Shown here: piece after piece, positions 2,689 through 28,699 of the stretch | Position numbering within the stretch: position 1 is the stretch's first letter | How the letters are laid out: each line of letters starts with the position of its first letter | Virus record (IMG/VR): IMGVR_UViG_3300010885_028425 | Coordinates: 1-31,146 of that record | Source: a virus | Length of the DNA: 31,146 nucleotides | Strand: one strand, 5' to 3' | Notes under the pieces: model-generated | Database searches by the model: none | Seen by the model: only the letters and a program-made list of their open reading frames with translations | Told to the model about the DNA's origin: nothing | Made by a program: the position numbers and the translations under genes

Positions 2689-2737
2689 TGCTGGGCCGAT
2701 AAATACACAGTAAGCAGGAGAACTATTGTGCCCAGCA
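2689..2737. promoter_or_regulatory. Inverted repeat TGCTGGGC/GCCCAGCA enclosing a late-type promoter and the ribosome-binding site
   Basis: TGCTGGGC (2689-2696) and GCCCAGCA (2730-2737) form a perfect 8-bp GC-rich stem. The 33-base loop holds the late motif GATAAATAC (2698-2706), the AGGAG ribosome-binding site (2716-2720) and most of the GTG start (2728-2730), whose last G is paired. A transcript reading through from upstream could fold and hamper initiation, whereas a transcript started at the late promoter (near 2711) would lack the 5' arm. Confidence 0.6.
2698..2706 (+). promoter_or_regulatory. T4-type late promoter motif GATAAATAC
   Basis: It matches the T4 late promoter octamer TATAAATA in seven of eight positions. 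The expected start site, about six bases beyond the octamer, gives a 17-base leader containing AGGAG before the GTG at 2728. The same 9-mer recurs at 9093 and 15229. Confidence 0.6.
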
Positions 2738-3456
2738 ACACCTATTTTAACTGGTCCGAACTAACCAGAAGTGATCTTACTTCCCTGTTCTGTACATTGA
2801 GAAATGATATAGTCGGGAAGACGCTTACACCTAGTCAAATTCAAAAGCGCATAAATCGTGCGATAAAACCACACCTTCCTATCAAATTGCGCAAGTGCAT
2901 CTACCCTAAAACTGATTTTGGATTGGTTTATATTGGCGGAGTCTACTACAGCGAACTGGATAAGAAAGGTTTACCCGCAATAGAAGTCAATTTCAACTTC
3001 AACCCATTTGATTGCACAGTCAAGATAACCGAATATCGCTTTCGTAGAATGGCTAGTCGTTTTGCAGACACAGTCATGCACGAAGTTATACACATGCGAC
3101 AATTCCGTGCAAGAAATTTCAAAAGTATTCCAGGTTATCAAAGCACAGCTGAATTGAGCAAAGAACGCAAAGAGCAAGAATACTACGGCGACACCGACGA
3201 AATGGGTGCATTTGCATTCAACATTGCCTGCGAACTATTGGATCGCTTTGGTTACGATCCAGTCCAAATCAAACGTTATCTAGACTCAAATCAGTCATAC
3301 CGCCATAAAACCAGTTGGTGGTGCTACTATTTGAAAACTTTTAATTGGAATCATGATCACAAGATCATCCGACGTATGAAAAATCTCATCATGCGTCAAC
3401 TTGAAAATGCCTACCTAGGCAAACCATTTAAGACCACAAACCACTTGACTTACTGA
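2728..3456 (+). CDS. Putative zinc metalloprotease (HExxH), GTG start
   Basis: The product is 242 residues from the GTG start. The HEVIH motif (118-122) follows a helix MASRFADTVM, and an acidic, small-residue helix GDTDEMGAFAFNIACELL (about 154-171) lies roughly 35 residues downstream and could supply the third zinc ligand, as in zincin peptidases. The N-terminal part is basic and the C-terminal region is rich in Trp, Tyr, His and Lys. I do not recognise a specific family; SprT-like and other phage metallopeptidases are possible relatives. I prefer GTG 2728 over the in-frame ATG 2686: AGGAG sits 7 bases before the GTG, and the late-type promoter at 2698-2706 lies downstream of that ATG. It may process proteins during late infection or lysis, but that is inference. 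Confidence 0.65.
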   Translation: MPSNTYFNWSELTRSDLTSLFCTLRNDIVGKTLTPSQIQKRINRAIKPHLPIKLRKCIYPKTDFGLVYIGGVYYSELDKKGLPAIEVNFNFNPFDCTVKITEYRFRRMASRFADTVMHEVIHMRQFRARNFKSIPGYQSTAELSKERKEQEYYGDTDEMGAFAFNIACELLDRFGYDPVQIKRYLDSNQSYRHKTSWWCYYLKTFNWNHDHKIIRRMKNLIMRQLENAYLGKPFKTTNHLTY

Positions 3457-7854: not shown

Positions 7855-7883
7855 TTGACTGAATCACCAAACGGCAGTATAAT
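7855..7883 (+). promoter_or_regulatory. Sigma70-type promoter TTGACT-17-TATAAT
   Basis: TTGACT (7855-7860) and TATAAT (7878-7883) are separated by 17 bases. The -10 lies in the 11-base palindrome GTATA-A-TATAC (7877-7887). The promoter starts only 4 bases after the upstream stop codon and serves the gene at 7916. Confidence 0.85.
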
Positions 7884-7915: not shown

Positions 7916-9079
7916 ATGGCCAAAACTGCATTTAAAAATCGTACTGCAAAGCCCAAGGACTTCAGTCCAGTTTGGGATAATGTAGAAACTATGACAGCGG
8001 AGCAATTCCAACGTCATTGGCACAATGCCATGTCTTACTACCGCTTGGAATTCAGCGGCAAGGATCTAAAACCCGCAGTTATCAAATGGATGACTGATAT
8101 TGGTTGTACCAAAACTGATGTGACTGCTTTTAAGAAAACCAAAGACAATCGTTGCAATGTCACAATGGGTGCTATTGCAAGTTGTTTGCTTCGTGGTATG
8201 CCCACAGTTCGTGCAGACTTCAACCAAGGTCGCGATACAGCCGAATGGTTGCGTAACGAAATTACCAGTGTAATTGAAGCTGGTAAGAACGATATTGAAG
8301 AAACCGAAGCTAAAGAAACCAAACCCTTGGTAGTACAGCCCAGCATCCAAGAACGTTTGCGTGAAACGGCGTTCAAAATGACCGAAGAAATCGAAGATGC
8401 TATCGAAGGTTTTCAAAATGATCCTGAAAACTTTGATCCAAAAGCATTCAAAATGCTTAACTTGCTCAAGGGCAAGGAAGTCAAAGCCGCCCACGCTAGG
8501 GTTATTAAAACCCTCTACAGCAGGGATTTAGCCGAGCTTCTAGAGTTGGCTAGCGGCAACGCTGATGAACAGCTTAAAGAGGGCTATAGCCACCGTACAA
8601 AGAAGCAAATTCGCAATTTGATTGCATTCTATCAAGAGATTATGAGTGCCTGCGATATGCTAGCCCAAGAAGCCAAAGTTAATCGCAAGCCAAAAGCTCG
8701 TAAAGCACAACCAAAAGAAAAGGTTGTGGCCAAAATGAAATACAAAAAATCGGACGAACCTTTGAAATTGGTTTCGATAAACCCTGTGGATATCATCGGC
8801 TCCAAAGAGCTTTGGATCTTTAACACTAAGACTCGTAAATTGGGTCGTTATGTTGCAGACGAGTACAAGGACTTGGGTGTTAAAGGCACCACAATTACTG
8901 GATTTAATGCTACCACCAGTGTTTGCAAGACCCTACGCAAGCCCGAAGACAAACTCAAAGAGTTCAAAGCGGCTGGTAAGGTACAACTACGCAAGTTCTT
9001 GGACAGTATCAATGCCACAGATACCATGATGAACGGGCGTATAAACGAAGAAACAATCTTGCTCCGAGTGCAAAGTTGA
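7916..9079 (+). CDS. Conserved-looking phage protein, unknown function, early-type promoter
   Basis: A 387-residue soluble, highly charged protein. The N-terminal part (about 20-110) and middle part (about 140-240, KAFKMLNLLKGKEVKAAHARVIKTLY) look helical. A basic linker at about 255-282 is rich in Lys, Arg and Ala, and a small C-terminal domain begins at LVSINPVDIIGSKELWIFNTKTRKLGRY. I recall similar hypothetical proteins in marine T4-like phages but no function. The basic linker would suit nucleic-acid contact, which is inference. AGGAG (7903-7907) lies 8 bases before ATG and a near-consensus host-type promoter precedes it, so it is probably made early and well. Confidence 0.75.
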   Translation: MAKTAFKNRTAKPKDFSPVWDNVETMTAEQFQRHWHNAMSYYRLEFSGKDLKPAVIKWMTDIGCTKTDVTAFKKTKDNRCNVTMGAIASCLLRGMPTVRADFNQGRDTAEWLRNEITSVIEAGKNDIEETEAKETKPLVVQPSIQERLRETAFKMTEEIEDAIEGFQNDPENFDPKAFKMLNLLKGKEVKAAHARVIKTLYSRDLAELLELASGNADEQLKEGYSHRTKKQIRNLIAFYQEIMSACDMLAQEAKVNRKPKARKAQPKEKVVAKMKYKKSDEPLKLVSINPVDIIGSKELWIFNTKTRKLGRYVADEYKDLGVKGTTITGFNATTSVCKTLRKPEDKLKEFKAAGKVQLRKFLDSINATDTMMNGRINEETILLRVQS

Positions 9080-9089
9080 TTTAGAAATA

Positions 9090-9123
9090 ATGGATAAATA
9101 CTCCAAAGAGAGTGTTTATCCAT
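9090..9123. promoter_or_regulatory. 12-bp hairpin containing a late promoter and ending on the start codon
   Basis: ATGGATAAATAC (9090-9101) pairs with GTGTTTATCCAT (9112-9123) through 12 bp with one G-U wobble around a 10-base loop. The late motif GATAAATAC (9093-9101) is the 5' arm, the AAAGAGAG ribosome-binding region (9105-9112) is essentially the loop, and the 3' arm covers the first two bases of the ATG at 9122. Only transcripts from upstream contain both arms; a transcript starting near 9106 would not fold this way. Confidence 0.7.
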
Positions 9124-10540
9124 GGCCCAACAAATAACTGATAATTTAGAAGTTTCCGGCAACCTACAAGTAGAATCAAATCTAGTTGTTAAGGGAACTA
9201 TAACTACAGATACATTTAATGTAAAGAATCTAGTAACACCAAATGGCAGTTTGGCCAGTGTTGGTAACTGGACGTATGCTACTGAAAACGAGCTCAACGG
9301 CAAAGGACTTAGCTGGGCCTGGGAGCAGGGTAGTACATATCTAAGTTATATGAATGGTAATAGATTACGTACTAATAGTAGCTTTGATTTAAGTGCAGGC
9401 TCATTTAATTTTAGTATAGATAATATTCCGGTATTGAGTTCAGATCGATTAGGTACTGGGATTGTAAAAAGCAATCTACAACAAGTTGGTACTTTACATA
9501 GTTTACAAGTATCAGGTGCAGTAAATCTAAGCGATCTATTGTTTGTTGACGATGTATCAAATAGAATTGGTATTGGTACAGAAGAGCCGGGTGCAAGCCT
9601 AACCATTTTGGATAACAACGTAGAAATTGGTATTGGCAGTCCTGACTACGGGGTAGGACACATTGGTTCATATAGCAATTCGGATTTTGATATTGTAACT
9701 GACGGACTACCAAGGATCAAGGTCAAGTCTACAGGCGAAGTCAATATAGGCGACCCCGTCAAAGGTGGTGGCAGATTAAATGTGTACGGCACATTGACTG
9801 CTACCAATGTGATAACAGATTACAAAATTGAAAGAAGCACTCCAATCAGCTTCAAAGCTAGCCCTGGACATGATATCTACGGTTTAGGGCTTGCATGGAC
9901 TGGCACCGGCTCTGCACGACAGTTTATCATGATGGGTGCTCCTGATAGATTGTGGAGTTCGGAAAGTATTGATCTTGCGCCACATCAAGCATACTACGTA
10001 AATGGTATGGTTGGACTAAGTGCAGACGGACTAGGGCCCACATTGCTCAATTCAAGTTTACAAACTGTAGGTACATTAACCAGTTTACGAGTTGCAGGGC
10101 ACAGCGATTTAAGTCATGTTAGAGCGGAAAATCTAACATTGGCATTGGATGATAACTCAGCTCGCTATGATCAAAGTAGCATTGACAGCAACACCCATTT
10201 TGATATTAAAATCAACGGCGAACTATTGCTCGGGTTGTCAAATAACAAATTGGTGTTGGGGGATGTTACGGAGCAACACAAACCAGTTCAACTGTTTGGA
10301 GCTGTCAGTATCAATGTCAATACTCCAGATCCAGAATTGAGTTTGGCTGTCAACGGCAATTACATGTTGGGCGGCAAACGCTTTGTACACTTCCCAAGTG
10401 CGCCTGCAACAGGCGAATATCAACTTGGTGACATGTGTTGGAATACCGCACCAACACCAAACAATTATATTGGTTGGATTTGTGTGGCCGGCGGCACTCC
10501 TGGTCTCTGGAATGGTTTTGGAATGATTGCTAGCCAATAA
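9122..10540 (+). CDS. Phage fibre-like structural protein
   Basis: A 472-residue protein rich in Ser, Asn, Gly, Leu and Val with the repeating short beta-strand pattern of trimeric fibre shafts (LEVSGNLQVESNLVVKGTITTD at the N-terminus). A segment recurs: LQQVGTLHSLQVSG...NLSDL (nt 9449-9538) and LQTVGTLTSLRVAG...DLSHV (nt 10031-10120). The C-terminal 55 residues form a probable tip with a conserved-looking WNTAPTPNNYIGWICVAG segment. There is no enzymatic motif and no intramolecular chaperone domain. The gene stands alone between a late-type promoter upstream and a sigma70-type promoter downstream. It is a likely late virion component, perhaps a side fibre or decoration protein; which position in the virion I cannot tell. 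Confidence 0.75.
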   Translation: MAQQITDNLEVSGNLQVESNLVVKGTITTDTFNVKNLVTPNGSLASVGNWTYATENELNGKGLSWAWEQGSTYLSYMNGNRLRTNSSFDLSAGSFNFSIDNIPVLSSDRLGTGIVKSNLQQVGTLHSLQVSGAVNLSDLLFVDDVSNRIGIGTEEPGASLTILDNNVEIGIGSPDYGVGHIGSYSNSDFDIVTDGLPRIKVKSTGEVNIGDPVKGGGRLNVYGTLTATNVITDYKIERSTPISFKASPGHDIYGLGLAWTGTGSARQFIMMGAPDRLWSSESIDLAPHQAYYVNGMVGLSADGLGPTLLNSSLQTVGTLTSLRVAGHSDLSHVRAENLTLALDDNSARYDQSSIDSNTHFDIKINGELLLGLSNNKLVLGDVTEQHKPVQLFGAVSINVNTPDPELSLAVNGNYMLGGKRFVHFPSAPATGEYQLGDMCWNTAPTPNNYIGWICVAGGTPGLWNGFGMIASQ

Positions 10541-10542
10541 AC

Positions 10543-10570
10543 TTGACCTTACACTGTAAAAGTGTATAAT
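10543..10570 (+). promoter_or_regulatory. Sigma70-type promoter TTGACC-16-TATAAT with internal inverted repeat
   Basis: TTGACC (10543-10548) and TATAAT (10565-10570) are 16 bases apart. TACACT-N5-AGTGTA (10550-10566) fills the spacer and reaches into the -10, which is a candidate operator for a repressor. Confidence 0.8.
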
Positions 10571-10573
10571 TAC

Positions 10574-10607
10574 TATATGCGGACTTAGGCATTCATCCCG
10601 CAATATA
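10574..10607 (+). other. Hairpin at the 5' end of the QueD-like gene leader
   Basis: TATATGCGG (10574-10582) pairs with CCGC-a-ATATA (10598-10607) with one bulged A and a 15-base loop. It lies at or just after the predicted transcription start and about 40 bases before the start codon. The leader (about 70 bases) is the longest in the window. I see no canonical preQ1-I riboswitch signature. Confidence 0.35.
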
Positions 10608-10645
10608 AACTCTGCATGCCATTGCTTAATCTTAAGGAGATAACA

Positions 10646-14622: not shown

Positions 14623-15233
14623 TGCTAACTTCAGTGGACCCATGGCGCCCGATAATTTACAAAGATAACTTTGGTGGATTAGACCACAGCGGTATCATCG
14701 ATAAAATAAATCCCATCCTCGATCAGTGTGCATCGTCTAACACATACCTTGAAAAGGATGGCGGTGTTAGCAGTGTGAGAGATTCAAAAACAAATAACAG
14801 TCTTGGGCCCATTGCTTGGGACGAGTTCGCTGGTTTAAGAGACTGGATGACTCCTAGAATTACCCAAGCAGTTGCCAACTGGGGTCTGCCCAGTATGAAC
14901 TATGTTGTGGATCTAAGCTGGATCAATCGTCACGGACCTGGTGCATGGACCGATGAGCATGTGCATAGAGCCACTGCATTTGTTGCTACATATTATATCA
15001 AAGCGCCTGAACATGGCGGACATTTGTTAGTACGCAACCCTTTAGAATACCATTGGAATTATTATCCCGAAGGTGATGATTTATCAAAGGAGATATGGAA
15101 GCCCGTAGAAGTAACTACTGGAGATTTTGTGTTGTTCCCCGGATGGCTACCCCACAAATCGGATATCAATCGTTCCTTGGACACAAGATATGTGTTGAGC
15201 GTTAACTTTATTGTTGCTCCAAGATACCGATAA
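14622..15233 (+). CDS. 2OG-Fe(II) oxygenase family protein (TIGR02466/PF13759-like)
   Basis: A 203-residue protein with the family pattern SWINRHGPGAWTDEHVHRAT (first metal region, H113/H115), the strand AFVATYYIKAPEHGGHLLVRNP (119-140), then GDFVLFPGWLPHKSDIN (distal H178) and R189 in TRYVLSVNF. The first metal motif is HVH where many relatives have HxH or HxD, so which residues bind iron is uncertain. The family is common in T4-like cyanophages and has no established substrate. GGAG at 14607-14610 is 11 bases before ATG, and translation is probably coupled to the glycosyltransferase-like gene through TAATG. Confidence 0.78.
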   Translation: MLTSVDPWRPIIYKDNFGGLDHSGIIDKINPILDQCASSNTYLEKDGGVSSVRDSKTNNSLGPIAWDEFAGLRDWMTPRITQAVANWGLPSMNYVVDLSWINRHGPGAWTDEHVHRATAFVATYYIKAPEHGGHLLVRNPLEYHWNYYPEGDDLSKEIWKPVEVTTGDFVLFPGWLPHKSDINRSLDTRYVLSVNFIVAPRYR

Positions 15234-15257
15234 ATACTGTCATGTATAATTTTATCA
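15229..15257. promoter_or_regulatory. Late promoter GATAAATAC within an inverted repeat spanning the SOD start codon
   Basis: GATAAATAC (15229-15237) overlaps the upstream stop and ends 4 bases before ATG 15242. TAC/GTA (15235-15237 with 15244-15246) and GATAAA/TTTATC (15229-15234 with 15252-15257) pair with a 5-base bulge on the 3' side. By T4 geometry transcription would start at the A of the ATG, and no Shine-Dalgarno sequence is present. Confidence 0.5.
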
Positions 15258-15802: not shown

Positions 15803-16067
15803 GACTACTGGCAGGAATACTCCATACTTTACGGCTTTCTACACCTTTGCTTTGTGCAAATTTCTTGGCATCACACTCAGAACACACATGATAGTAGTTG
15901 TCGTTTAAACGCTTGGGATCCATGGCACCTTTATCCCTATGAAATAGATTTTGACAACTGTCGCACCTAAATATAACCACACGTTTTTTACGGCTATAGG
16001 TATGGGTCATACCGCACGTACTAGTGCGTACATAGTAGTTTTGTCTAAGTTCTGTTCCTAAATACAT
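15780..16067 (-). CDS. Small zinc-ribbon protein
   Basis: A 95-residue basic protein with two CxxC knuckles: C35/C38 (IFRCDSCQ) and C62/C65 (HVCSECDAKKF), separated by 23 residues with KGAMDPKRLNDNYYH between them. This is a four-cysteine zinc ribbon; similar proteins occur in marine T4-like phages without known function. Nucleic-acid or protein binding is plausible. There is no HNH catalytic motif, so I do not call it a homing endonuclease. It lacks a Shine-Dalgarno sequence and starts 3 bases after a minus-strand late-type motif. Confidence 0.65.
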   Translation of the reverse strand: MYLGTELRQNYYVRTSTCGMTHTYSRKKRVVIFRCDSCQNLFHRDKGAMDPKRLNDNYYHVCSECDAKKFAQSKGVESRKVWSIPASSLKTLDQL

Positions 16068-16079
16068 AATGTATTTACA
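16059..16079. promoter_or_regulatory. Minus-strand late-type motif in a palindrome overlapping the zinc-ribbon start codon
   Basis: TAAATACAT-A-ATGTATTTA (16059-16077) is a perfect 9-bp inverted repeat with one central base. On the minus strand TGTAAATAC (16079-16071) lies in the 5' arm and the ATG (16067-16065) in the 3' arm, with only 3 bases between motif and ATG. The octamer TGTAAATA has two mismatches to TATAAATA. Confidence 0.45.
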
Positions 16080-16099
16080 TTAAGGTTATAAAATCCTTT

Positions 16100-16108
16100 G
16101 ATAAATAT
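16100..16108 (+). promoter_or_regulatory. Late-type promoter motif GATAAATAT
   Basis: The octamer GATAAATA has one mismatch to the T4 late consensus and sits in the small palindrome TGAT-AAAT-ATCA (16099-16110). The predicted start near 16113 leaves a 14-base leader with GAGGG (16115-16119). It probably drives the Fe-S carrier gene and the giant structural gene 3 bases behind it. Confidence 0.55.
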
Positions 16109-16126
16109 CATATCGAGGGCTACAAA

Positions 16127-16453: not shown

Positions 16454-28698
<12,245 letters not shown>

Positions 28699-28699
<1 letters not shown>

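Follow-up and report, generated by a model that had tools for sequence, protein, structure and literature searches.

The start of a tail-fibre-like gene in a 31,146-nt stretch of viral DNA (the window) lies within a hairpin that encloses a T4-type late promoter, and we consider it probable (roughly 0.83) that the gene is controlled by a transcript-origin switch of the T4 type, with the site of late initiation, the read-through and the effect on translation predicted from the sequence. Early in infection, host sigma70 polymerase would start at position 7855, transcribe the upstream gene and, with no terminator in its way, run on into the fibre gene. In this read-through RNA, the promoter-bearing 5' arm of the hairpin would fold onto the ribosome site and the start codon and so block translation. 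Late in infection, a sigma factor of the gp55 type would start at about 9105-9106, inside the loop, so that the late message would lack the 5' arm and the fibre gene would be translated.

A first-pass annotation of the window had proposed a switch of this kind, and the proposal is supported by compensatory changes in the stem, by replacement stems in relatives, by a conserved sigma70 promoter, by a gp55-like sigma factor and by the T4 precedents. Low early translation could also stem from other causes, since the ribosome site of the fibre gene (GAG) is weak. The mechanism itself is already known from T4, and because the sequence-level features that can be tested are present, we file the fibre-gene case with the T4 switch. 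What is new is that the target is a tail-fibre gene, that the stem has been re-invented repeatedly and that hairpins appear to be traded against terminators. A literature search that covered open-access papers, with subscription papers largely outside its scope, returned no report of promoter-in-hairpin control on a tail-fibre gene.

Architecture of the hairpin at the fibre-gene start

The stem, read directly from the sequence, comprises 14 bp with one G-U pair around the 6-nt loop CAAAGA (9104-9109). Its outer 12 pairs, which contain the G-U, join 9090 ATGGATAAATAC 9101 to 9112 GTGTTTATCCAT 9123, and two further inner pairs follow (T9102-A9111 and C9103-G9110). The hairpin had first been described as a 12-bp stem with one G-U pair and a 10-base loop that formed the ribosome-binding region. 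Its location and the single G-U pair hold, whereas its size has to be revised and the GAG of the ribosome site (9110-9112) is found in the stem. The 3' arm hides this GAG together with the AT of the ATG, the latter as originally noted; the arm stops at the T, so the G of the ATG is unpaired.

Folding of the surrounding 76 nt (9075-9150) yields -20.2 kcal/mol (z -4.66), a value equalled by 0 of 200 shuffles. Among helices with loops of 4-12 and at most one G-U pair, the hairpin is the longest of the window; the longest helix in 12 dinucleotide shuffles of the whole window had 12 bp, compared with the actual 14 bp. No known Rfam RNA family matched the fibre hairpin above the gathering threshold. 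We also considered the hairpin as an intrinsic terminator of the upstream gene and rejected this, as the stem is followed by GGCCCAACAA instead of a T run and the hairpin is absent from the terminator scan. The protein encoded downstream has partial matches to virion structural, tail fibre and short tail fibre families (Table 1).

Table 1. Features of the window belonging to the predicted switch, and a second promoter-enclosing hairpin
Feature	Position	Strand	Evidence and remarks
Sigma70-type promoter TTGACT-17-TATAAT	7855..7883	+	11/12 consensus matches; presumed source of the early read-through message
Conserved upstream gene, phrog_11903	7916..9079	+	E 8e-65; presumed early
5' arm of hairpin	9090..9103	+	sequence and fold; predicted only in read-through RNA
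Late promoter motif GATAAATA	9093-9100	+	T4 consensus TATAAATA at -13 to -6
Predicted +1 of late transcript	9105..9106	+	T4 spacing (PMC1524935); probable leaderless late genes in relatives
Ribosome-binding region AAGAGAG	9106..9112	+	sequence; similar AAGAGA-type site recurs in relatives
3' arm of hairpin	9110..9123	+	fold; overlies the ribosome-site GAG and the AT of the start codon
Putatively controlled gene, 472-aa tail-fibre-like virion protein	9122..10540	+	ATG 9122-9124
Second, weaker promoter-enclosing hairpin	2689..2737	+	arms 2689-2696 and 2730-2737; GATAAATA at 2698-2705; start GTG 2728

Early and late promoters

The sigma70 promoter proposed at 7855 is present and near-consensus in most relatives: 67 of 87 distinct relatives have a perfect TTGACA-17-TATAAT and 11 more match at 11/12 (78 of 87 in total), while shuffled controls never exceeded 10/12 (0 of 87 at 11-12). 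In the window, the terminator scan found no convincing terminator on the stretch from this promoter to the hairpin, and early transcripts from 7855 are predicted to read through into the fibre gene. In Ochrobactrum phage OC, a relative of the phrog_11903 gene is located near the genes for RNase H, gp33, the helicase loader and gp32, a neighbourhood that fits an early or middle gene, the promoter class being assigned from sequence alone. The upstream stop codon precedes the late motif by a median of 20 nt. In a few relatives (e.g. L206) it is very near the hairpin, and a terminating ribosome there might disturb the 5' arm, which counts against the switch.

That the 5' arm bears a late-promoter motif was borne out. 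Late promoters in T4 consist of the consensus at -13 to -6, with position -13 being variable in other T4-like phages (PMC1524935), and at this spacing the late start would fall in the hairpin loop, between the arms, leaving the late RNA without the 5' arm. Although gp55 was not identified on the 31-kb contig, matches to it were found in three large relatives, of 356, 345 and 223 kb; the gp55-like sigma of the 356-kb relative, the only one tested, matches the PHROG late sigma family at E 1.9e-73. Before gene starts of these three relatives, in the same order, NATAAATA occurs in sense versus antisense orientation 51 vs 9, 47 vs 12 and 19 vs 5 times. The distances from motif to ATG are bimodal in large relatives, with a tight cluster at 12-13 nt, counted from the motif start, and a broad one at about 23-38 nt. 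In the tight cluster the ATG lies at about the expected +1, which suggests that these genes have probable leaderless late messages and lends independent support to the predicted start at 9105-9106.

Leaderless-type spacing recurs in G001, G002 and other relatives, and in the two largest relatives it applies to about a fifth to a quarter of the late-motif genes, compared with 1 of 24 in T4. The window has an example in a superoxide-dismutase-like gene at 15242 (15229-15244), and a spacing of 12-15 nt is kept there in about 35 relatives. Upstream of this gene family, between divergent genes, some loci (among them L039, L052 and L025) carry back-to-back late motifs, ATATTTAT..ATAAATAT, an arrangement that suggests overlapping divergent late promoters.

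Hairpin designs and compensation in relatives

To avoid selection for pairing, loci were gathered via the upstream protein and not via the hairpin, with a few added through a fibre search; they were collapsed by sequence identity, and the related sequences are still non-independent. This provided 90 distinct downstream regions, 71 of which combine a late motif with an ATG in range. One of these (L230) was set aside because the reading frame behind its first hairpin is very short and is followed by a second promoter. The remaining 70 regions were scored and comprise 15 with an intrinsic terminator before the promoter, as judged by eye on printed sequences, and 55 without. All 55 terminator-free regions contain a strong hairpin sealing the ribosome site, and in all of their designs the 3' arm covers the ribosome site or the start codon and the predicted late start is located between the arms.

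Three terminator-free designs were distinguished: the promoter is placed inside the 5' arm, as in the window, in the loop of a GTCTC/GAGAC stem, or in loops closed by other stems, for example CTCTCGTGCT/AGCACGAGAG (L276), TCTCTCGTCC/GGACGAGAGA (L360) and TTCCAGTA/TACTGGAA (L246). Unrelated designs have the same geometry and complementarity alone, with no arm sequence in common. The window-type design is kept across four N-terminal families of the fibre protein, and 22 contigs, two of 345 and 223 kb among them, have a single copy of the exact window-type hairpin per record. In L230, a window-type hairpin with the altered inner stem ATACCT/AGGTAT lies just downstream of the upstream gene and leads to the very short reading frame; the second late motif stands before the fibre gene, and the hairpin looks like a relic.

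The first-pass annotation had pointed out that stem variation without compensation would speak against the switch, a check whose outcome favoured the switch. In an alignment of 33 window-type sequences, 91.9% of the cells are paired, and sliding the partners by 1-3 columns destroys the pairing (33-54%); changes on both sides were counted in 17 cells, compared with 6.7 in shuffled data. A switch between G-C and A-U at columns 10/41, just outside the promoter box, is compensated in 7 of 7 variant sequences and none is left unpaired. Of the 17 both-sided changes, 9 fall on the outermost pair, 6/45, which is itself unpaired in 17 of the 33 sequences, so the internal pair 10/41 is the stronger evidence. 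The promoter columns are invariant, as expected, and uninformative on pairing; much of the 5' arm is thus unable to covary, and compensation is seen mainly at one outer pair of the stem and in the changes of design.

Nucleotide searches returned no matches in cultured phages, and in the sampled cultured phages that carry the upstream gene (PA5oct, OC, Cr30, phiM12 and BUCT-ZZ01) the fibre gene is not adjacent to it. A scan of genome contigs yielded one binned contig labelled Bacteroidetes, which is not enough to name a host.

Predicted strength of the block and relation to terminators

As a measure of the block we used the predicted free-energy cost of making the ribosome site accessible, in the read-through RNA and in the late RNA. 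For the fibre gene of the window, opening costs 15.9 kcal/mol in the read-through and 1.2 kcal/mol in the late transcript. By the same measure, the differences amount to 14.8 kcal/mol for T4 gene e, 12.9 for I-TevII, 12.7 for I-TevI and 12.6 for gene 49, while 167 late-like sites in six relatives have a median difference of 1.8 kcal/mol; the value for gene 28979, whose motif register was two bases off, was left out of these results.

The 55 terminator-free relatives have a median difference of 15.9 kcal/mol (range 9.5-23.3), whereas the terminator-bearing ones have a median of 8.0 kcal/mol (range 2.1-14.3), a contrast with p 1.6e-8 when sequences are counted without correction for kinship. Corrected for kinship on the upstream-protein tree, it reduces to 3-6 independent transitions, with which a pair test cannot reach significance, and the apparent trade between hairpin and intrinsic terminator is therefore suggestive. 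The cleanest single contrast is that of L360, with a perfect stem and no terminator, and its close relatives L376 and L369, with a terminator and almost no stem.

Further promoter-enclosing hairpins and leaders

Late-like sites were scanned in T4, six relatives and the window, using 5' regions swapped between sites as the control. The scan recovered T4 I-TevI, I-TevII and segB, and in every relative the fibre hairpin ranked first or close to first. A conserved 241/242-aa gene, found at 2728-3456 in the window, was flagged as well. In the window, opening the ribosome site of this gene costs 9.0 kcal/mol in the read-through and 4.5 kcal/mol in the late RNA; about 35 relatives retain its leader hairpin, with a median difference of 10.4 kcal/mol, the stem of the window being different and weaker. 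Pairing in this leader is kept, but covariation did not stand out, with 7 both-sided changes against 4.3 in shuffled data and 96 of 1,000 shuffles reaching 7. We lean towards the view that, among these large T4-like phages, promoter-enclosing hairpins are general, repeatedly re-evolved early-to-late insulators that are interchangeable with intrinsic terminators, and that each genome uses them on two or more conserved genes (those for the fibre and the 242-aa protein).

Several other leaders were recorded. In the relatives' 242-aa gene leaders, GTGCGTATATAAT is conserved just upstream of the late motif and resembles an extended -10 early or middle promoter. A 107-aa gene (16127) was rejected as a switch, since its leader folds, but only weakly in most relatives (median 2.8 kcal/mol); just upstream of its late motif, dozens of relatives share a strongly conserved block, TTTACATTAAGGTTATAAAA (window 16060-16126), possibly another promoter class. 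A GC-stem leader, GCGGAC...CCCGC..ATATAAACTCTGC, precedes a QueD-like gene (window 10560-10616) and has no Rfam match; a similar leader lies downstream of the phrog_11903 gene in L059, L074, L079, L085 and L277. Positions 16454-28699 of the window are occupied by one open reading frame of 4081 aa, for which no Pfam match was returned.

Alternative explanations

The hairpin might serve the 3' end of the upstream early message, as an exonuclease block or an RNase III site that protects or processes it, and overlap the start codon incidentally. Its place just past the stop codon of the early gene is a common spot for such hairpins, but in every terminator-free design the start codon or the ribosome site is covered by the 3' arm and the two arms flank the predicted late start, and hairpin strength is lost in relatives with a real terminator. 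We regard this explanation as unlikely, although a 3'-end role and a translation block could coexist.

Even less probable is a role at the DNA level, in which the 3' arm of the inverted repeat would be bound by a protein or would act as a further late promoter, in antisense orientation. Back-to-back late motifs do exist at the 15242 family, yet an antisense late motif in the 3' arm is found in just 1 of 41 promoter-in-arm relatives, on which ground we rejected such a promoter; moreover, G-U pairs and bulges preserve RNA pairing while breaking DNA symmetry, and the other designs share complementarity only. The occurrence of one design ahead of several fibre N-terminal families would agree with a boundary for homologous recombination in fibre-gene exchange, the pairing being a by-product of promoter and leader sequence. 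Such a boundary needs identity, however, and the arms vary in sequence among relatives while their pairing is kept, which makes this the least probable of the explanations considered. The transcript-origin switch remains our preferred reading.

Comparison with known systems

The promoter-in-hairpin switch of T4 is usually told as a few special cases, namely lysozyme, endonuclease VII and homing endonucleases. Its placement before a tail-fibre gene across dozens of environmental phages, where unrelated sequences have been used to rebuild the stems, makes it look like a standard timing device, makes the rule searchable in phages that cannot be grown, and offers a natural comparison between two ways of insulating a late gene, by terminator or by hairpin.

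Among the T4 precedents named at first pass, e and I-TevI are as given in reviews (PMC3014915, PMC2988022). The case of soc is weaker: the first bases of its 5' arm lie at roughly the predicted late start, which makes gene 49, e and I-TevI more suitable for comparison. In T4 gene e (lysozyme), the ribosome site is covered by folding of the long early RNA, whereas the late RNA is missing the 5' part; the effect on synthesis is approximately 100-fold (PMC3014915). Unlike in the window, the nearest late promoter lies in the loop, as in the loop designs of the relatives, and the target is a lysis enzyme. In T4 I-TevI, I-TevII and segB and in Aeh1 mobE, a hairpin likewise conceals the ribosome site in transcripts coming from upstream, and the late promoter lies within or next to it (PMC2988022), but the targets are mobile endonucleases, the intron-encoded ones located inside early or middle units. 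The leader of T4 gene 49, whose 5' arm bears the late motif AATAAATAC and whose 3' arm extends into the ATG, has nearly the same geometry as the window, although it differs in sequence, belongs to an endonuclease VII gene and comes from a phage of E. coli.
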